Below are positions 3,310-34,867 of a stretch of DNA of 64,000 nucleotides, piece by piece. This DNA comes from Solibacillus sp. FSL R7-0668 (GTDB taxonomy: Bacteria > Bacillota > Bacilli > Bacillales_A > Planococcaceae). Position numbers and translations under genes: made by a program. Position 1 is the first letter of the stretch; every line of letters begins with the position of its first letter. The stretch covers positions 312,001 through 376,000 of the forward strand of contig NZ_JBBOUU010000001.1 in the NCBI RefSeq assembly GCF_038006205.1, in the 5' to 3' direction. The notes below the pieces were generated by a model that searched no databases, had not been told where the DNA came from, and saw nothing but the letters and a program-made list of their open reading frames with translations.

Positions 3310-4335
3310 ATGATCAAGCAACCATCAATTTTATCAAAAACAAATGTCTTTTATACGCTGATCGTTGGCGTGATGATTGCGTTACCATTTGTGATGGATT
3401 CCAGAACCTTAACGATTTTGTTAACGCAGTTTTGTATTTTTGCCATTTTAGCGATGAGCTATGATATTTTATTAGGCTACACGGGAATTATTTCATTTGG
3501 TCACGCGATGTTTTTTGGAGTGGGCGCTTATTCAACGGCGATTATGCTCAGTGATTATGGACCATCTATGGGGATTTTTATCGCTTCAATGGCTGTTGGT
3601 GTGGTGCTATCGGTCTTAATTAGCATCGTTAGTGGCGCGCTTACATTGCGACTAAAAAATCACTTTTATGCGATGTTTACGATGGCGATTTCGGGTTTAT
3701 TCTTAGTTGTTGCAGAAAAATGGCGTACGGTGACGAAAGGCAATGACGGGTTTACATTTCGAGCACCAGAGTTATTCCGTGAGCGTCTCTATTTCTATTT
3801 ATTCGTCGTGATTTGTTTAGTTGTTGTCTTTATTTTACTGAAACGATTTGTCGCTTCTCCGTTTGGAAAGGTGCTTGTTGCGATTCGGGAAAATGAGCAA
3901 CGCACTCGTTCATTAGGCTTTAAAACATTAGGGTATAAAATTGTGGCCTCTGTTGTAGCTGGCGCCGTCGCAAGTGTAGCGGGCTCGTTGTATGCGGTGT
4001 CATTACGATTTGTAAATACGAGTGTCATGACAATGGATATTACATTGGATGCGCTCATGATGACGATTATCGGTGGTGTCGGAACATTAATTGGACCGAT
4101 CATTGGCGCGGGTGTGATTGAGTTTGCACAGCATTATTTATCGGGGCTGGCACGAGATTATCCGATTTTTGAACGTTGGATTATTTTCTTCGGCATTTTA
4201 TACATTTTGGCAGTGATTTTCTTCCCTCGAGGAATTGTTGGGACGGTTCAATTAAAATATCGCGAATGGACCGTGATGAAGCAGCGTAAGTCGACACCTA
4301 CAATAGTGATGGAAGAAAAGGAGGGACATCAATGA
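3310..4335 (+). CDS. LIV-type ABC transporter permease (LivM-like)
   Basis: Second channel subunit, 341 aa, polytopic. Family marks are SYDILLGYTGIISFGHAMFFG in the first half and the cytoplasmic loop with VAIRENEQRTRSLGF followed by GGVGTLIGPIIGAGVI. It starts 4 bases after the LivH-like stop. The last four bases overlap the ATG of the FabH-like gene, so the transporter and the enzyme genes are translationally coupled, which argues that the enzymes act on the imported substrate. Confidence 0.92.
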   Translation: MIKQPSILSKTNVFYTLIVGVMIALPFVMDSRTLTILLTQFCIFAILAMSYDILLGYTGIISFGHAMFFGVGAYSTAIMLSDYGPSMGIFIASMAVGVVLSVLISIVSGALTLRLKNHFYAMFTMAISGLFLVVAEKWRTVTKGNDGFTFRAPELFRERLYFYLFVVICLVVVFILLKRFVASPFGKVLVAIRENEQRTRSLGFKTLGYKIVASVVAGAVASVAGSLYAVSLRFVNTSVMTMDITLDALMMTIIGGVGTLIGPIIGAGVIEFAQHYLSGLARDYPIFERWIIFFGILYILAVIFFPRGIVGTVQLKYREWTVMKQRKSTPTIVMEEKEGHQ

Positions 4336-5342
4336 TTGGAATGACGGGGCTTGGGGTGTATTTGCCAAAAGGACGTATGACAGCAGAAGAAATTGCAACG
4401 CGAGCAAACATCCCAAAAGCGGTAGTAGAAGCCAAAATGGGCATTATCGAAAAGGTTGTCGCAGGACCAACTGATCATCCGGTTGAAATGAGCATTAAAG
4501 CGGCGCGCAATGCCATTTCAGAGGCGCGAATCGATGCAAAGGAAATTGATGTCGTGATTTATATCGGCGAGGAGCATAAGGAATATCCGCTTTGGACGGC
4601 AGCGATAAAAATTCAAGAAGAAGTGGGCGCTGTGAATGCGTGGGCCTTTGATGTACAGCTAAGATGTGGGACGGCCATCATGGCGATGAAGGTGGCAAAA
4701 AGCTTAATGCAGGCAGATGAATCCATTCGTACGGTGTTATTGGCGGGCGGCTATCGCAATCATGATTTTATTGATTATCAAAATGAGCGTACCCGGTTTA
4801 TGTTTAATTTAGGCGCGGGTGCAGGCGCAATGGTTTTACAAAAAAATGCAGGTGGTCATGAAGTGCTTGAAACAGAGCTCATTACAGATGGCTCCTTTTC
4901 AGAAGATGTGGTCGTCCCTGTTGGCGGAACGAGGGAGCCTTTAACGCCAGAACACTTACAGCAAGGCAAATATATGTTAGATGTATTAGATCCTGAAGGC
5001 ATGAAGCTTCGTTTAGAGCAAAAATCATTGGAAAACTTTTTAAAGGTAATCCGTCGTTCTTTGGAGAAAAGTGGTTATAACGAGCGGGATTTGAGCTATG
5101 TGGCGATGTTACATATGAAAAAATCTGCGCATGATTATGTTTTAGGGGAGCTTGGATTGACGGAGGATCATTCCATCTACTTATCGCATTATGGGCATAT
5201 TGGCCAAATCGATCAAATTTTATCGCTCTATCTTGCAAGAGAAGCAGGGATGCTCCAACAAGGGAATATCGTTTCTCTAGTGAGCGCAGGGATTGGTTAT
5301 GCGTGGGGCGCAATTACTGTTAAATGGGAGGCTTCAATATGA
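4332..5342 (+). CDS. FabH/thiolase-fold 3-oxoacyl synthase-like protein
   Basis: Thiolase-superfamily protein of the 3-oxoacyl-ACP synthase III type, 336 aa. The nucleophilic cysteine is at C112 (LRCGTA), exactly the FabH position, and the family histidine appears as H261 (MLHMKK). The third catalytic residue, Asn in FabH (YGN), is replaced by H289 (HYGHIGQ). The usual glycine-rich C-terminus is kept (SAGIGYAWGA). It therefore probably is not a housekeeping fatty-acid initiator; condensation or retro-Claisen cleavage of an acyl-CoA fits its place between an importer and a hydrolase/reductase/ligase set. That role is inference. It overlaps both neighbours by 4 bases (ATGA). Confidence 0.8.
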   Translation: MIGMTGLGVYLPKGRMTAEEIATRANIPKAVVEAKMGIIEKVVAGPTDHPVEMSIKAARNAISEARIDAKEIDVVIYIGEEHKEYPLWTAAIKIQEEVGAVNAWAFDVQLRCGTAIMAMKVAKSLMQADESIRTVLLAGGYRNHDFIDYQNERTRFMFNLGAGAGAMVLQKNAGGHEVLETELITDGSFSEDVVVPVGGTREPLTPEHLQQGKYMLDVLDPEGMKLRLEQKSLENFLKVIRRSLEKSGYNERDLSYVAMLHMKKSAHDYVLGELGLTEDHSIYLSHYGHIGQIDQILSLYLAREAGMLQQGNIVSLVSAGIGYAWGAITVKWEASI

Positions 5343-14098: not shown

Positions 14099-14262
14099 TC
14101 AATATTAGCTAGCATGCTTATGTAAGCAGCCACATTGCCGTAGTTATTATAGAAAGTTTTAAACCACCACTCCTCAAAGTGGGTGTTCGCAAATGTTATC
14201 TTGTCTATCCCAGAGTCAAAAGAGTCCGGGCACGCCATTCCAACATCGATGTAAAACTCCCT
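14068..14262 (-). ncRNA. Candidate structured non-coding RNA, about 195 nt
   Basis: No ORF covers this region. On the minus strand it opens after a -10-like TATACT (14268-14273) and ends in a perfect 11-bp hairpin AACACCTTCAC/GTGAAGGTGTT followed by a T-rich tail. In between are several local hairpins (for example CCACT/AGTGG around 14165-14185, GCTTA/TAAGC near 14114-14133). Base composition is richer in G and C than the surrounding intergenic DNA. Size and self-contained layout would suit a 6S-like RNA, but I could not build the long closing helix by eye, so the class is open. Confidence 0.45.
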
Positions 14263-14389
14263 GTATAAGTATAAAGGTTAAAACTTAATATTCGTACGTA
14301 CAACGTAGCCTTATTGTTATCATATAGTAAGTGTTTGTGCATTGCAAGAAAGTATGTTTTCGAAAAAAAGTCAAATAATTTGAATGCAT

Positions 14390-19261: not shown

Positions 19262-20278
19262 ATGTTTAAATCTAAAAATATGTTATTCATGTTTATTTTA
19301 AGCGCTTTCATTTTAGTGTTAGCAGCATGTGGTGGAGATGATAAAACTTCAACAGATTCTGGCACTTCAGATTCGGGTACAGATAAAGAAACAGAAACAA
19401 CGGGAACAGATTATAGCGGCGAGTTTTTAAGTATTTTAACAGGTGGTACACAAGGAACTTACTATCCATTAGGTGGAACGTTCGCTGACTTAATTACTTC
19501 AGAAACAGGCGCAAAAGTAACAGCTGAGGTTTCACAAGCATCTGCTGCCAATATGACAGCTCTTGATGCAGGTGAAGGTGATGTAGCATTCGTACAAACG
19601 GATATCGCGTACTATGCAACAAACGGCACGATGATGTTTGATGGACAAAAAATCGAATCGGTTTCTGCATTAGGTGCATTATATCCAGAAACAATTCAAT
19701 TAGTAACATTAGCAGATTCAGGCATTAAATCATATGCAGATTTAAAAGGTAAAAAGGTATCTGTAGGTGCACCAGGCTCTGGTACATTTGCAAACGCAGA
19801 ACAATTATTAGAAATCCATGGTTTATCAATGGATGATATTAAAGCACAAAACTTAGATTTCGGTGAATCAACAGATGGTATTCAATCTGGTCAAATCGAT
19901 GCGGCATTCATTACAGCAGGTTATCCTACAGGTGCTGTAGAGGCATTAAATGCTACAAAAGGTGTATTTATCGTACCGGTTGAAGCAGCAAAAGCAGAAG
20001 AGTTAATTGCGAAATATCCATACTATGCAGTGGATAATATTCCAGCAGGCACATATGGCTTAGAAGCAGACACACCAGCTGTTTCAGTTGGCGCGATGTT
20101 AGCAGTTAAGAAAGATTTACCAGAAGATTTAGTATATGCAATGACAAAGGCGATTTATGATAATACAGATAAAATCAGCCATGCAAAAGGTGCGTTCATT
20201 AAAGCTGAAACGGGCTTAGATGGAATCGGTATTGATGTTCACCCAGGTGCACAAAAATACTTTGATGAAGTGAAGTAG
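19262..20278 (+). CDS. TAXI-family TRAP transporter solute-binding lipoprotein
   Basis: 338-aa extracytoplasmic receptor. Lipobox LAAC with the lipidated Cys at about residue 22, then an acidic/Thr-rich linker. The mature part opens with FLSILTGGTQGTYYPLGG, the signature of TRAP-associated extracytoplasmic immunogenic (TAXI) proteins, and contains KKVSVGAPGSGT and VDVHPGA-like stretches typical of them. TAXI receptors usually bind glutamate or other small carboxylates; the ligand here is not known. Followed by an attenuator-like hairpin, the DUF1850 gene and the fused permease. Confidence 0.9.
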   Translation: MFKSKNMLFMFILSAFILVLAACGGDDKTSTDSGTSDSGTDKETETTGTDYSGEFLSILTGGTQGTYYPLGGTFADLITSETGAKVTAEVSQASAANMTALDAGEGDVAFVQTDIAYYATNGTMMFDGQKIESVSALGALYPETIQLVTLADSGIKSYADLKGKKVSVGAPGSGTFANAEQLLEIHGLSMDDIKAQNLDFGESTDGIQSGQIDAAFITAGYPTGAVEALNATKGVFIVPVEAAKAEELIAKYPYYAVDNIPAGTYGLEADTPAVSVGAMLAVKKDLPEDLVYAMTKAIYDNTDKISHAKGAFIKAETGLDGIGIDVHPGAQKYFDEVK

Positions 20279-23399: not shown

Positions 23400-24512
23400 A
23401 TGTTGGCGGTAAAATCGAGTGAACAAATGATATTTGATTGGTTTCAGCATTTCCATGCAAATCCGGAAGTTAGCTGGAAAGAAGTGAAGACAACTGCGAG
23501 ATTAGCGGAAATTTTAAGTGGCATGGGTGTAGCCTTCAAACGTTTTGATGATGTGACAGGCATAGTCGCAGAAATTGGCACAGGTAACGATGTAATTGCG
23601 GTTCGTGCGGATATTGATGCACTTTGGCAAGAGGTAGACGGTATGATGCAGGCCAACCATTCTTGTGGTCATGATGCCAATATTTCGATGGTATTAGGCG
23701 CACTTCACGCATTAAAAGATGAAAAATTAACAAAACGCATTCGCTTTATTTTTCAACCGGCTGAAGAAACAGGTGGTGGTGCGCTAGCGATGGTTGAGCG
23801 CGGGGTGATGAAGGATGTAACGCATTTATTTGGGGTGCATTTGCGACCGCAAGAGGAGCTGCCACTTGGTAAAGTCGCACCGGCCATTTATCACGGGGCT
23901 GCTGCATTTTTAGGTGGTACCATTTCCGGAGCAGATGCACATGGAGCGCGTCCGCATCAGGGGAATAACGCTATTGATGTAGTCGTTGCGATTCAGCACA
24001 TGTTAAAAAACATTCATATCGATCCGTTTGAAGTGTATTCGGCGAAGTTAACGAAAATTGTTGCAGATGGCGGCAGTGTAAACATTATTCCAGGGAATGC
24101 TAGCTTTTCAATCGATGTACGTGCACAAAAAAATGAAATACTCGCGCAAGTACAGCGATATGTAGACAAAGGGCTAAAGCAAATTTCTGACATGTTCGAG
24201 ATTGACATTGCTTGGGATTGGCAAGATGTGACACCGGGTGCGGAAGTGTCAATAGAAGCGGCAGCAATAGCGGAGCGTGCGATTGTGGAAGCGTTAGGGG
24301 AGTCGTATTTAGCACCAGCAGTCGTAACGCCTGGTAGTGATGACTTCCACTTTTATACGATTAAAAATCCGCAATTAAAAGCGGCGATGATCGGTATTGG
24401 TGCAAATCTAGGACCGGGGTTACATCACCCTAAAATGACATTTGATGCCCAAGCGTTGTTAGACGGCGCCAAAGTAATAGCTACCACATTAAAAATGATG
24501 GCAACAAAATAA
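23400..24512 (+). CDS. M20-family amidohydrolase/peptidase
   Basis: 370-aa metal-dependent hydrolase of the M20D/IAA-amino-acid-hydrolase group. Metal-binding motifs are CGHDAN (about residue 86), the PAEETGGGA pair with the catalytic Glu, the VHLRPQ histidine and a C-terminal GLHHP. It likely removes an acyl group from an N-acylated amino acid; the exact substrate is not readable. I chose ATG 23400, 6 bases after GAGGTG, over the GTG at 23391, which overlaps that site. A -10-like TATACT lies at 23362-23367. Confidence 0.87.
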   Translation: MLAVKSSEQMIFDWFQHFHANPEVSWKEVKTTARLAEILSGMGVAFKRFDDVTGIVAEIGTGNDVIAVRADIDALWQEVDGMMQANHSCGHDANISMVLGALHALKDEKLTKRIRFIFQPAEETGGGALAMVERGVMKDVTHLFGVHLRPQEELPLGKVAPAIYHGAAAFLGGTISGADAHGARPHQGNNAIDVVVAIQHMLKNIHIDPFEVYSAKLTKIVADGGSVNIIPGNASFSIDVRAQKNEILAQVQRYVDKGLKQISDMFEIDIAWDWQDVTPGAEVSIEAAAIAERAIVEALGESYLAPAVVTPGSDDFHFYTIKNPQLKAAMIGIGANLGPGLHHPKMTFDAQALLDGAKVIATTLKMMATK

Positions 24513-24519
24513 TAGAATG

Positions 24520-24556
24520 AAAAACGATGCTACCTATTCAGCGTAGCATCGTTTTT
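24520..24556. terminator. Bidirectional terminator
   Basis: AAAACGATGCTAC (24521-24533) pairs with GTAGCATCGTTTT (24543-24555); A-run before and T-run after let it serve both the M20 gene and the convergent FhuF-like gene. Confidence 0.9.
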
Positions 24557-24557
24557 C

Positions 24558-25265
24558 TTATTTAATTGGGCAAAAGCCACAAGCGATTAAGCCGGGAATA
24601 TCTTTTGAAAAGCAGCAGCTTTTACGGACAGGTTGATTGATTAGCGCAGATGGACTTTGACCACCTGTGTAATTTAGGAATAATGATTTGTCTGAGAAAT
24701 GACGCCATACATGTTTATCCTCGAGCATATCTAAATCCTCAAATGCGCGGTCTGCTAATGCAGGGTTTGCAAGTAAAGTATGGAAATGCCAGAGCATATA
24801 GCCGAAAATATTCTCCCATAATGTTAGAGGGGAAATGGATGTTGTTTTGCGCAATTGGCCAATGATTACGGACGTTTTATACAAAAGGTCGGTCATAACA
24901 CGCTCACGCTCATCATCCTCTACATAGCGGAAATCATTTGGATTAATGTACATCCCTAATGTATGAATACCGAATTCTGGAACCATCGCAAAGCGTAAGT
25001 CTTCTGGCTTTCCATCCCAAATTTCATCATAGGTTGTGAGCATATAAAATTGCATGGCCACAAACATACCGTAGCGGCGTCCAAAGTGAGAAATCGCAGC
25101 TGCCTCTGTTGCAGCATTCGTAATGCCCATCATTAAATTGCGAAAATCGGTTAAATAAAAATCCTTATGCAAATTCGCTAATGTAAAAAGTGGACGCTGT
25201 GGCTCTTCTGTAAAAATACTATAGGAATTTAATTGGCGTACTTGATCGTATGAAAGTGCAGGCAT
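24558..25265 (-). CDS. fhuF: FhuF-like siderophore-iron reductase
   Basis: 235-aa cytoplasmic protein whose C-terminus carries the FhuF [2Fe-2S] pattern C-C-x10-C-x2-C (SCCFSKDIPGLIACGFCP). FhuF reduces ferric siderophores after import to release iron. The body has the family's conserved Trp/His-rich helical segments (YMLWHFHTLLANPALADRAFEDL). I start at ATG 25265 behind AAAAGGTGA; a GTG at 25274 overlaps that site. It is divergent from the DUF4395 gene and about 550 bases from a Fur box. No siderophore importer lies beside it. Confidence 0.78.
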   Translation of the reverse strand: MPALSYDQVRQLNSYSIFTEEPQRPLFTLANLHKDFYLTDFRNLMMGITNAATEAAAISHFGRRYGMFVAMQFYMLTTYDEIWDGKPEDLRFAMVPEFGIHTLGMYINPNDFRYVEDDERERVMTDLLYKTSVIIGQLRKTTSISPLTLWENIFGYMLWHFHTLLANPALADRAFEDLDMLEDKHVWRHFSDKSLFLNYTGGQSPSALINQPVRKSCCFSKDIPGLIACGFCPIK

Positions 25266-25285
25266 TGAAATCACCTTTTCTAAAA

Positions 25286-25344
25286 TTAGTTTAACTTTAC
25301 TATAACATTTCTCTTCACAAACGCGTAAAAAAACGTTAAACTAA
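25286..25344. promoter_or_regulatory. Pair of inverted 10-mers in a divergent promoter region
   Basis: TTAGTTTAAC (25286-25295) and its exact reverse complement GTTAAACTAA (25335-25344) flank the fhuF/DUF4395 divergent start region. The first lies just downstream of a minus-strand TATAGT (-10 of fhuF, 25304-25299); the second covers a possible plus-strand -10. They may be operator half-sites. Confidence 0.35.
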
Positions 25345-25373
25345 ATAAAACTTATCAGAAAGGTTGGTTTTAG

Positions 25374-25802
25374 ATGACGAAACCGATTTCTATTCCGAGG
25401 CCTTTAGTGCGCGTCAATCAATGGACAATTTTTCTTTCCGTTATTTTAACGTGGGTTACAGGGCAGTACGGGCTTATAGCGATTCCTTTAGTGGCAAATC
25501 TACTAGGTGTTTTAACTGGGTTTAATCCCATCATGCGTTTTGCGAAGCTTTTTTTAACGAAGGATATAAAAGCATATATTCCTGAAGATGTCGGACAGCA
25601 AAAGTTCAATGCGACTATTGCCTGTGTATGTTTAGCGGGAGGGCTTGTAGGATTTGTGCTAAATATTTCAGTGTTAGCTTATAGTTTTACATTCATGGTT
25701 GCACTTGCTTCATTTATTGCGCTTCTAGGATTTTGCATTGGATGCTTCCTACATTTTCAATTGAAGCAATTTCAATACCGTAATTCGTTGAAAAATTCTT
25801 AA
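25374..25802 (+). CDS. DUF4395 membrane protein
   Basis: 142-aa membrane protein with about four helices, opening RPLVRVNQW and closing with GFCIGCFLHFQLKQFQ; both are DUF4395 marks, including the CxxC pair inside the last helix. Members are often found near rhodanese or thioredoxin-like genes, but none adjoins here. Function unknown; the CxxC suggests a redox or sulfur role. Shares an upstream region with fhuF. Confidence 0.75.
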   Translation: MTKPISIPRPLVRVNQWTIFLSVILTWVTGQYGLIAIPLVANLLGVLTGFNPIMRFAKLFLTKDIKAYIPEDVGQQKFNATIACVCLAGGLVGFVLNISVLAYSFTFMVALASFIALLGFCIGCFLHFQLKQFQYRNSLKNS

Positions 25803-25810
25803 AATAAATA

Positions 25811-25839
25811 TTGACAATGATAGTGATAATCATTATCAT
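25811..25839 (+). promoter_or_regulatory. Promoter overlapped by a near-perfect Fur box
   Basis: TTGACA (25811-25816), 17 bases, TATCAT (25834-25839). The 19-bp sequence at 25819-25837, GATAGTGATAATCATTATC, differs from the classical Fur box GATAATGATAATCATTATC at one position and covers the spacer and -10. Transcription should be blocked by Fe-Fur and open under iron limitation, reading into a region without a gene. Confidence 0.85.
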
Positions 25840-25844
25840 ATAAA

Positions 25845-25972
25845 TTGTAGCAAGAGCTTATTTGTAATTCAGTACAAGTAAGTCCTGAGCAAACCTACTT
25901 TTCTCCAGGAGTAGGTTCGCTCAGGTATTGCATTCTAAACCCCCTCAATTTAGAATGTAGTTTGACTTTTTC
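25845..25972 (+). ncRNA. Candidate Fur-regulated small RNA (FsrA-like by logic)
   Basis: Downstream of the Fur-box promoter there is no ORF with a ribosome binding site. The predicted RNA has a 16-bp hairpin (25884-25899 with 25910-25925, one mismatch) and a second perfect 9-bp hairpin (25931-25939 with 25949-25957) whose loop is CCCCCTCAA. A T-rich stretch follows at 25965-25971. C-rich unpaired segments are how the Bacillus iron-sparing RNA FsrA contacts ribosome binding sites, so an iron-sparing antisense RNA is a reasonable inference. If it reads through, the next terminator is at 26019. Confidence 0.6.
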
Positions 25973-26018
25973 AGACATGAGTTTTTCACCCTTTATGTTT
26001 TTCTTCAAAGTTGTACTT

Positions 26019-26047
26019 CCCGTATCATGCGTAGATGCGGGTTTTTT
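26019..26047 (+). terminator. Terminator downstream of the Fur-regulated transcript
   Basis: CCCGTATC and GATGCGGG pair with one G-U and a 7-base loop, followed by TTTTTT. Confidence 0.8.
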
Positions 26048-26056
26048 CATTTGGTC

Positions 26057-26093
26057 AAAAAACGGATGACACGATTATGTGTGATCCGTTTTT
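26057..26093 (-). terminator. Terminator overlapping the 3' end of the DMT gene
   Basis: AAAAAACGGATGACAC (26057-26072) pairs with GTGTGATCCGTTTTT (26079-26093), one mismatch. On the minus strand the first arm encodes the last residues KTDHT and stop of the exporter; the T-run follows. Confidence 0.85.
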
Positions 26094-27046
26094 GTTAGGG
26101 AAAGCTGCTTTCTACTGGCGAGCATTGTATGGTAGCTATGTAGTAACATGCCGATAATGATGACGGCTAAGCCTGCTAACGCAATAGGCTGTGGTAAAGG
26201 AACGCTTAGTAATACCATTTCACCAATCATCGCAAACAGCACCTCAGTTGATTGGGTTGCTTCAACGGCTGCTAATTTCCCTTGGTCGTGGCGCACGCGA
26301 TCGGTGGCGATGAAAAACAATACCGTCGCAATTACTCCTGAAGACACGGCAACGAGTAATGACTGAAATACTTGGTTCGAGGAGGGCATACCTACTGTAA
26401 ATGCTGCGTAAATAGCAAGAATAATCCAAGCAGGTAGGGAAGCAATCGTCATACCAAGCACTCGCTGAAATGGATCGACGCGCCCACCACAAAGCTCCAT
26501 CATTTTACGATTCCCTAGCGGATACGCAAAAGCCGCAATGACGACTGGTAAAATGCCAAGCAGCAAACTTTTAGTTGAAACACTTTGGGCTTGTGGGATT
26601 TGAATCATTAAGATGCCGATTAAAATAATGCTCGATATACCAAGTGAAATGAGCGGGATTTTGGCACGAATAGGTTGACCAGATGTGACGGTCACAAAAA
26701 GTGGGGCAAGTAGCACACCCGCTACAATTGTGAATTGCCATGTGCCTGAAACGAGCCAGCCCGGACCGAATGCGGCTGCGAATGTTAATGGTGCATAAAA
26801 CAAAACAAAGCCGACAAAGCTCCAAATGACCCAAGCTCCTGGATGTTGCTTCATTTCTGAAGTCATGATGCGAAAGCCACCCTTTCCGCGAATCGCAACG
26901 ATAGCGATTAAAAACGGGAGCATAAAGAAATAGCGAAGTGACGAGCTCCAGAGCCAGCTGCCACCTTCTAGCTCCATGGAATGATTTAACACAAATGTGA
27001 CAGCGAAAAAGAGCGCTGCTAAAATACCGATTAATAATTCCTTCAT
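26075..27046 (-). CDS. DMT-superfamily multidrug efflux transporter
   Basis: 323-aa integral membrane protein with about ten helices, of the putative multidrug resistance efflux (EmrE-like, 10-TM) family. The opening LLIGILAALFFAVTFVLNHSME and the segment SLRYFFMLPF with GAWVIWSFVGFVLFYAPLTFAA fit that family. Substrate unknown. I start at ATG 27046, which follows GAGGTG at 7 bases; the longer frame to 27121 runs over the pepT terminator and has no ribosome binding site. Confidence 0.8.
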   Translation of the reverse strand: MKELLIGILAALFFAVTFVLNHSMELEGGSWLWSSSLRYFFMLPFLIAIVAIRGKGGFRIMTSEMKQHPGAWVIWSFVGFVLFYAPLTFAAAFGPGWLVSGTWQFTIVAGVLLAPLFVTVTSGQPIRAKIPLISLGISSIILIGILMIQIPQAQSVSTKSLLLGILPVVIAAFAYPLGNRKMMELCGGRVDPFQRVLGMTIASLPAWIILAIYAAFTVGMPSSNQVFQSLLVAVSSGVIATVLFFIATDRVRHDQGKLAAVEATQSTEVLFAMIGEMVLLSVPLPQPIALAGLAVIIIGMLLHSYHTMLASRKQLSLTKTDHT

Positions 27047-27103
27047 ATGACACCTCACTTTATTTTGGATTAAGAATTTTCTGATAATATTGTACGAAAA
27101 AAT

Positions 27104-27125
27104 CGAGGTGAACGGAATCACCTCG
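27104..27125 (-). terminator. Terminator of pepT
   Basis: Perfect 8-bp stem CGAGGTGA/TCACCTCG with 6-base loop; the minus-strand tail is ATTTTTTCG. Confidence 0.88.
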
Positions 27126-27141
27126 ATAAAATTTTTTTATT

Positions 27142-28368
27142 CTAGTTACGTTTTTCAAATAACTGAACAATTTCAATAATCACTTCAGTTGCCTTTTCCA
27201 TCGTTTCGCCTGATACGAATTCATATTTACCGTGCATGTTTTCGCCACCAGCGAAGATGTTTGGTGTTGGTAAGCCCATGTATGAAAGTTGAGAGCCGTC
27301 AGTACCACCACGAATTGGTTCAACGATTGGCATAATATCGAATTTCGCAAATGCTTCTTTTACGATATCCACAATTTCCATCACAGGTTCGATTTTTTCG
27401 CCCATATTGTAATATTGATCGTCAATTTGTACGGTAATCGCGTCTTCACCGTATTTTGCTTGCATATCTTGTCCGACCTTTGCCATGAATGCTTTTTTCT
27501 CTTCGAATTTCGTGCGGTCATGGTCGCGGATAATGTAAGACATTGTTGATTCTTCGATGCCACCTTCAAAGTGCATTAAGTGAATGAAGCCTTCGTAGCC
27601 GTCTGTTTTTTCAGGAACGGCGTCTTTTGGCATTTCGTTTTGGAATTCGATTGCTTTTGTAATCGAGTTGACCATCTTATCCTTGGCAGAGCCTGGGTGA
27701 ATATTCGTGCCGCGTGTTGTGACTTTTACGCCAGCTGCATTAAAGCTTTCGAATTGTAATTCACCAAGTGGGCCGCCATCCATTGTGTACGCGTAGTCAG
27801 CGCCAAATTGTGCGACGTCAAATTTATGTGGGCCACGACCGATTTCTTCATCTGGTGTAAAGGCAACGCGGATTTTACCATGCTTAATTTCGGGATTGTT
27901 CACTAGGAACTCCATAGCTGTCATAATTTCAGCGATCCCAGCTTTGTCATCTGCACCGAGTAATGTGTTGCCGTCTGTTGTAATTAGTGTTTGTCCCACA
28001 TAATTTTTTAAGTTCGGGAAGTAGTCAGGTGACATAACTAAGCCATTTTTTAATGTAATTGCTTCACCGTCATAGTTGTCGATTCGTTGAGGCTGGACAT
28101 TTGTACCTGTGTAATCAGTTGTTGTATCCACATGCGCTAAAAAGCCGATTGTTGGTACGTCTTTATCTGTGTTTGCTTCTAATGTTGCGAAAAGGTAGCC
28201 GTTTTCATCTAATGTAATGTCTGTTAAACCGATTTCAGCTAATTCGTCTTTTAAAACATGCAATAGATCAAATTGCTTCATTGTTGAGGGGGTTGTTTCT
28301 GAGTTGAAATCAGATTGTGTGTCGATTTTCGCATAGCGTACTAAGCGTTCAATAACTTTTTCTTTCAT
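27142..28368 (-). CDS. pepT: Peptidase T (tripeptide aminopeptidase)
   Basis: 408-aa M20B zinc aminopeptidase that removes the N-terminal residue of tripeptides in the cytoplasm. Visible marks are [17 protein letters not shown] (first zinc His and Asp), [20 protein letters not shown] (bridging Asp), [14 protein letters not shown] (catalytic Glu pair), [20 protein letters not shown] and the C-terminal [16 protein letters not shown] histidine. Length and motif order are those of PepT. Single-gene unit with its own terminator. Confidence 0.96.
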
Positions 28369-34751: not shown

Positions 34752-34867
34752 CTCTTATCAAGAGCGGCTGAGGGAATAGGCCCTATGAAAGCCCAGCAAC
34801 CAGTGAGTGATGAACTGACTAAGGTGCTACGTCCTACAAAATGAACAATCATTTTGGCAGATAAGAG
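34752..34867 (+). promoter_or_regulatory. SAM-I riboswitch (S-box) aptamer
   Basis: Closing helix P1 CTCTTATC/GATAAGAG (34752-34759 with 34860-34867). Inside are the invariant S-box elements: the AAGAGCGGCTGAGGGA block, GGCCCTATGAAGCCC-type stem, the CAGCAACC segment and the AAGGTGCTA segment. It binds S-adenosylmethionine and, with the terminator at 34889, turns off metY when SAM is abundant. Confidence 0.97.

Follow-up and report, generated by a model that had tools for sequence, protein, structure and literature searches.

What is a promoter with a Fur box across it for, when no gene follows it in the same direction? The window, by which we mean the whole 64-kb stretch of Solibacillus DNA analysed here, holds such a site, and the initial annotation read the hairpin-rich RNA expected behind it as an iron-sparing RNA, either a diverged FsrA or a separate one. 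The FsrA model of Rfam (RF02273) is positive in 4 of 299 genomes of the class, and these four belong to a single genus outside the family; passages of PMC9410917 describe IsrR as an RNA of staphylococci. RNA-based rationing of iron in other Bacilli is thus little charted. For much of one family, an RNA that is conserved downstream of a Fur box and whose structure covaries, with targets predicted for it, makes the matter testable; it would also be a further likely example of convergence, in which RNAs of separate origin act on the same enzymes. As argued below from sequence comparison, positions 25846–26047 probably specify a trans-acting, iron-sparing small RNA repressed by Fur-Fe(II), the loop of whose third hairpin (H3) would block translation of iron enzymes. 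It is probably a member of an undescribed small RNA family of a known functional kind, the Fur-repressed iron-sparing RNAs.

The promoter, the Fur box and the RNA body

The features of the locus are given below in the order of their coordinates.

24558–25274, minus strand: gene for an FhuF-like ferric-siderophore reductase, divergent to the RNA, a conserved neighbour
25374–25802, plus strand: DUF4395 gene (PF14340, E 1.5e-28), stopping 9 bp upstream of the −35 hexamer
25811–25839, plus strand: promoter TTGACA-17-TATCAT, promoter score 11/12
25819–25837, no strand assigned: predicted Fur box, between −35 and −10
25846–26047, plus strand: predicted small RNA of ~200 nt, its start placed 7 nt past the −10 hexamer and its end placed by the terminator
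25856–25883, plus strand: H1, an 11-bp hairpin with the hexaloop AUUCAG, from the fold and a covarying stem
25884–25925, plus strand: H2, a long hairpin with the tetraloop CUCC (25903–25906) in UUUCUCCA
25930–25958, plus strand: H3, a hairpin whose loop CCCCCUCAA (25940–25948) is the predicted seed, from covariation and pairing energies
25960–25976, plus strand: H4, a small hairpin GUUUGA/UCAGAC, from the fold, gapped in 19–23 of the 47 rows of the family alignment
25978–26005, plus strand: unpaired tail UUUUUCACCC...UUUUUCUUC, a third C-containing stretch
26019–26047, plus strand: likely intrinsic terminator CCCGTATC...GATGCGGG TTTTTT, a terminator-like site (26019–26041) followed by the T-run
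26075–27121, minus strand: gene for an EmrE-type transporter, the next gene downstream, convergent to the RNA

Both the promoter and the overlapping Fur box are where the initial annotation had placed them. Scored against the classical 19-mer consensus, the box agrees at 18 of 19 positions and is the sole site of at least 16/19 in the window; 20 simulated 64-kb windows contained none. The promoter ranks first of 14 promoter-like sites in 24000–28000, a stretch in which their total does not exceed chance (14 observed vs 10.7 expected, sd 3.2).

The fold of positions 25846–25980 is far more stable than that of 200 shuffled sequences (z = −8.45). The two hairpins that had been described are real: the 16-bp one is an inverted repeat at 25884–25899/25910–25925 (16 nt, 94%) and the 9-bp one an inverted repeat at 25931–25939/25949–25957 (100%). 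H1, however, had been overlooked, the T-run reported to adjoin the 9-bp stem is absent, and the RNA is longer than had been thought. Because no T-run directly follows its stem, H3 is ruled out as the terminator. Since conservation within the window's genus runs beyond 25972 through UUUUUCACCC to the terminator hairpin further downstream, the RNA probably spans some 200 nt. By eye, a like hairpin is present in 15 of the 16 copies of this genus; terminator-like sites as a class number 6 against 3.9 expected. The tail, UUUUUCACCCUUUAU-UUUUUCUUC, is conserved and unpaired in the window's genus and similar in two others (L045–L052), and in other genera a terminator comes after H3.

Conservation, covariation and distribution in the family

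The initial annotation had proposed that relatives be searched for the pair of promoter and RNA, and a DNA search finds both in every one of the 16 genomes available for the window's genus. The −35 and −10 hexamers, identical in all 16 copies, and the loops of H2 and H3 are almost invariant there, and the Fur box scores 17 or 18 of 19 throughout. For the wider family we used two models, neither of which includes the promoter: a covariance model (R1) and a sequence profile built from 49 copies (R2), the latter made from sequence only because RNAalifold, applied to a MAFFT alignment of the 49 sequences in which the arms of H1 were misaligned, yielded zero pairs. R1 has matches in 68 of 261 family genomes and 9 of 19 genera, R2 in 110 genomes and 16 genera, and three genera (g2, g5, g16) are without any R2 match. 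All 20 loci fetched from the 42 genomes added by R2 (genera g7, g12, g14, g18 and g19, the inspection covering 20 of the 42) carry a Fur box of 17–19/19 and a properly spaced promoter just upstream, and, by eye, a T-run hairpin downstream. The presence of the RNA is thus well supported for thirteen genera; the R2 matches in g4, g13 and g17, with E 8e-4 to 0.008, are candidates. Outside the family, R2 gave five matches among the 299 class genomes, and no Fur box was found in the four of them that were fetched as loci, the best scores being only 10–12/19.

The 49 copies were drawn from the 79 matches of R1, as the loci fetched minus the near-duplicates L029, L047 and L056, and minus L044, which is the same place as L077. 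TTG-17-TATCAT precedes every one of them, across nine genera, and 45 have a Fur box of at least 17/19, the other four being tandem copies within one genus, probably Caryophanon. The tandem loci L061, L062 and L063 (~3970–4420) each hold a pair of copies ~240 bp apart, with a weak Fur box of 12–14/19 on each downstream copy and, in L061, on the upstream copy too. At a contig start (L110/L204), an intact copy is preceded by one that has the promoter and the CUCC loop, without a C-run within 70 bases; it is apparently a decaying duplicate.

We also scanned 84,980 species genomes for a loose Fur box followed 40–68 bases on by CTTTTCTCCA, which gave 81 matches in 80 loci, from 100 matching stretches. 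Promoter and downstream C-run are both present in 50 of the matches, the promoter only in 1, and neither in 30. All 51 promoter-bearing matches fall within this family (Lysinibacillus, Viridibacillus, Psychrobacillus, Caryophanon, Paenisporosarcina, Ureibacillus, Rummeliibacillus, Kurthia, Metasolibacillus and "Bacillus" ndiopicus); the 30 without a promoter lie outside it, ranging from Chloroflexi to Lachnospiraceae and including one Pseudalkalibacillus and one Gemella.

Evidence for the structure itself comes from 47 rows fitted to R1, in which 93.2% of the cells pair and 35 of 44 pairs show change on both sides. Compensatory cells number 321; shuffling leaves 92.4, and sliding the partner leaves no more than 75. 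These counts come from the R1-fitted alignment A6, which is biased toward the R1 structure. The loops hardly vary: the CUCC tetraloop of H2 and CCCCU within the loop of H3 are found in 49 of 49 copies, and, while both motifs doubled as alignment anchors, no copy was dropped for want of either. Of the 49 automatic stem calls, 34 give AUACAG, AAACAG or AUUCAG as the loop of H1; the procedure lost or misplaced H1 in 11 of the 49 copies.

Could the transcript nevertheless be something other than a regulatory RNA? Let us consider that it is a short mRNA for a Fur-controlled small peptide. Fur-regulated small proteins do exist, FbpABC being the example, and single copies contain ORFs of up to 36 codons. 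The longest ORF per copy, however, ranges from 5 to 36 codons in the 23 of 27 copies checked, and neither place nor frame is common to these 23; the window's own longest, of 35 codons with a TTG start, runs across the terminator. The compensatory changes in the stems, together with length differences of single bases, fit an RNA structure instead. We rejected a peptide gene on this lack of a common ORF and regard such an mRNA as very improbable; the earlier statement that no translatable ORF is present is narrowed to the lack of a common one, and a conserved ORF starting after the Fur box, which it was said would speak against the RNA, was looked for in the same 23 copies and not found. A folded RNA in the interval from a promoter to the gene that comes next might also be a leader of that gene, or its hairpins might be due to chance, and to this we give even less credence: the neighbour at 26075–27121 is convergent in the window, on which ground a leader was rejected, with the terminator-like site lying between, and conservation and covariation exclude chance hairpins.

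Of 71 loci searched by tblastn with the five window neighbours, a set in which one place is counted twice (L044 = L077), 65 have the FhuF-like gene in divergent orientation to the RNA. The gene lies 23–323 bp from the −35 hexamer of the RNA, or farther where the DUF4395 gene intervenes, which is so only in part of the family; in the close-spaced loci the RNA and the FhuF-like gene could share a single Fur box. The six loci without a divergent FhuF-like gene comprise one contig end and five second copies, the position of which, away from fhuF, fits a role in trans. These second copies (L069, L072–L075) are in genus g8 (probably Lysinibacillus) and have no FhuF-like gene in ~4 kb on each side. 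The reductase neighbour named in the initial annotation is real though diverged: in the window the protein scores 45.7 bits against TIGR03951 (E 7.3e-12, below the cut-off of 63.85) and 16 bits against Pfam FhuF (cut-off 25.2), and it ends at its C-terminus in CC-x10-C-x2-C, which we take to be the FhuF cluster motif.

Predicted pairing with ribosome sites of iron-enzyme genes

The scheme we consider for the action of the RNA is as follows. Fur-Fe(II) would repress it, and scarcity of iron would allow it to be made, displaying the loops of H2 (CUCC) and H3 (CCCCC-UCA), both complementary to ribosome-binding sites. The H3 loop would then pair with the G-run Shine-Dalgarno sequences of the ilvD, gltB, sdhC, acnA, lutA-like and perhaps qcrA mRNAs, and with these ribosome sites paired, translation would be blocked and iron spared. 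What the sequence itself displays is the promoter, the Fur box, a conserved RNA structure with covarying stems and constant loops, the synteny with the FhuF-like gene and the excess of complementarity of the iron genes as a group; transcription, Fur binding, repression of the targets and a role of H1 we infer.

Pairing energies, which ignore mRNA structure, were compared with a background of 373 genes at ribosome sites sampled from 424 kb of the window's own genome, these genes being self-called ORFs of at least 100 codons with the start picked by Shine-Dalgarno score. Pairing with ribosome sites of iron enzymes, predicted earlier for the C-rich loop, shows up as an excess of the group, leuC being an exception: for six iron genes fetched by family the Mann-Whitney P of the H3-loop energies is 6e-4, and with gltB and qcrA added (8 genes) it is 3e-5. 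The six-gene value is given separately because gltB and qcrA first came from the pattern scan. A control with the anti-Shine-Dalgarno sequence is borderline (P 0.053), so that ribosome sites may be G-rich for reasons other than pairing with this RNA; H3 minus control gives P 1e-4. For the H2 loop and the tail, P is 0.13 and 0.15 with six genes and 0.043 and 0.072 with eight, an enrichment that is at most weak.

Gene by gene, the strongest candidate is ilvD, for which pairing with H3 exceeds that of all 373 background genes. Its site, UUGAGGGG-C-GUUUA, would form 13 pairs, interrupted by a single bulge, with UAAACCCCCUCAA of H3, and against each genome's own H3 the energy lies between −15.4 and −22.3 kcal/mol in 16 of 16. 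The gltB and qcrA genes rank at 0.5% and 1.3%, respectively, while the rank fractions of sdhC (0.048), acnA (0.072) and the lutA-like and CCG oxidoreductase genes (0.083 each) are modest singly; H3 pairing was not found for leuC (rank fraction 0.42), the start codons of which are ambiguous. Molybdopterin enzymes, considered as targets, gave none in the own genome. The window's tail reaches −20.5 kcal/mol against the acnA leaders of some relatives; with the acnA leader of the own genome the value is no better than −14.7.

GGGGG stands at the ribosome site of sdhC in 16 of 16 genomes and of acnA in 14 of 14 fetched loci, and in the own genome also at gltB, qcrA, the lutA-like gene and the gene of a CCG-type Fe-S oxidoreductase. 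G-run sites are not specific to iron genes, being frequent elsewhere too: GGGGG is found at 36 of the 373 background ribosome sites, and iron-sulfur domains were seen in 2 of the 2 such background genes searched. A scan for GAGGGGG fetched 57 stretches, from which 37 ORFs of at least 50 codons were kept, leaving out the RNA's own antisense match and repeated matches that we took for rRNA; among the 8 ORFs run against Pfam, only GltB and QcrA bind iron, CcdC being linked to cytochrome c by its name. The gene at 19262–20278 (plus strand) in the window, which looks to us like one for a TRAP/TAXI solute-binding protein, has a G-run ribosome site, AAGGGGGATATTTTAC. Passages of PMC11257911 list DctP as a target of FsrA. 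They also list citB, sdhCAB, gltAB and LutABC, which sdhC, acnA, gltB and the lutA-like gene, all with GGGGG sites here, match.

Relation to FsrA and other iron-sparing RNAs

FsrA, which acts with FbpA, FbpB and FbpC, is closest to the window's RNA in its promoter: including the Fur box, the promoter of the window is nearly identical to those of four fsrA loci, over 27/29 to 29/30 nucleotides. Behind the promoter the two part company. RF02273 gave no match in any of the 16 genomes of the window's genus, with B. subtilis as positive control, and is absent among the Rfam matches up to E 10 for 25780–26080. The RNA bodies match at chance level only (best E 1.8), and none of the five window neighbours lies within 1.5 kb of the four fsrA loci. 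FsrA is 83–84 nt long, passages of PMC12871923 giving 84 nt. Its fold consists of a 5′ hairpin, a single-stranded C-rich linker and a terminator, in contrast to three covarying hairpins in an RNA that we place at ~200 nt; the C-rich segment thus lies in the linker of FsrA and in the H3 loop of the window's RNA, although it is unpaired in both, and the predicted targets of the two overlap. On these grounds (no model match, chance-level similarity of the body, no common neighbours) we rejected orthology with FsrA, and the "diverged FsrA" of the initial annotation is not supported.

One may still imagine a true orthologue, descended from the same ancestral gene, in which the body was rewritten beyond recognition. 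Such a history would be compatible with an iron-sparing role, and the promoter identity, the unpaired C-rich segments and the overlapping targets would all follow from it; but considering that the FsrA model has no match in the 16 genomes of the window's genus and among 299 class genomes is positive in a single genus of another family, that body and gene position differ, and that the C-run sits inside a third hairpin rather than in a single-stranded linker, we consider it improbable. The FsrA-like promoter sequence may simply be the product of common Fur and sigma sites. Only slightly less improbable, in our estimate, is an RNA under Fur control whose principal job is not iron sparing, such as the control of siderophore use or the binding of a protein via H1 or H2. 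The linkage to the FhuF-like gene, the conserved H1 loop, which has no obvious target, and the many G-run sites in non-iron genes would suit such a job. The group excess of pairing at iron genes, including several of the targets reported for FsrA in passages of PMC11257911, argues against it, and so do the five second copies away from fhuF. The reading we prefer, the separate iron-sparing RNA that was the other half of the original proposal, is supported by the Fur promoter, the covarying stems, the fixed loops, the lack of a common ORF, the convergent orientation of the gene downstream and the group excess of pairing. Going further, we are inclined to think that the Caryophanaceae (Planococcaceae) have an iron-sparing RNA of their own, which would go back to an ancestor of much of the family and have originated next to the FhuF-like gene under the same Fur control. 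It would have evolved separately from FsrA, IsrR and RyhB and come by convergence to act on the same targets, its CUCC loop pairing with ribosome sites in general and its C-run with those that have a G-run, and it would have been duplicated in Caryophanon and Lysinibacillus.

How does this RNA compare with other known ones? No Rfam 15 model scores above threshold at the locus, and none of the titles and abstracts found among open-licence articles in PMC reports such an RNA from these bacteria. (Two other RNAs in the window do exceed their Rfam gathering scores, a 6S RNA at 14123–14314 on the minus strand and a SAM riboswitch at 34752–34867 on the plus strand.) The best bacterial match at the locus is rli22, full-length but weak (23.5 bits, E 0.088, gathering score 80), and it is outscored by a microRNA model on the opposite strand (29.7 bits, gathering score 90), owing to the long stem of H2. 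LhrC/rli22 of Listeria (clan CL00114) likewise has C-rich motifs thought to bind ribosome sites, but the match at the locus stays far below the gathering score. RyhB and PrrF of proteobacteria are Fur-controlled iron-sparing RNAs too; the PrrF model gives a sub-threshold match across the promoter (15.9 bits, gathering score 90), and the tandem copies in one genus here recall PrrF1/F2. Both are named beside IsrR in PMC9410917, passages of which describe IsrR as a Fur-repressed RNA, conserved in its genus, that targets mRNAs of Fe-S enzymes and has three stem-loops, a terminator and two Fur boxes. Compared by that description, the window's RNA is similar in plan, with predicted Fur repression, three stem-loops and a terminator, C-rich loops, conservation through a genus and predicted targets among mRNAs of Fe-S enzymes. 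The placement of the motifs is unlike, however: IsrR carries CRR1 in the loop of H1, CRR2 at the foot of H2 and CRR3 in the loop of H2 (PMC9410917), whereas the RNA described here has A[AU][AU]CAG in the loop of H1, CUCC in that of H2 and the C-run in that of H3.
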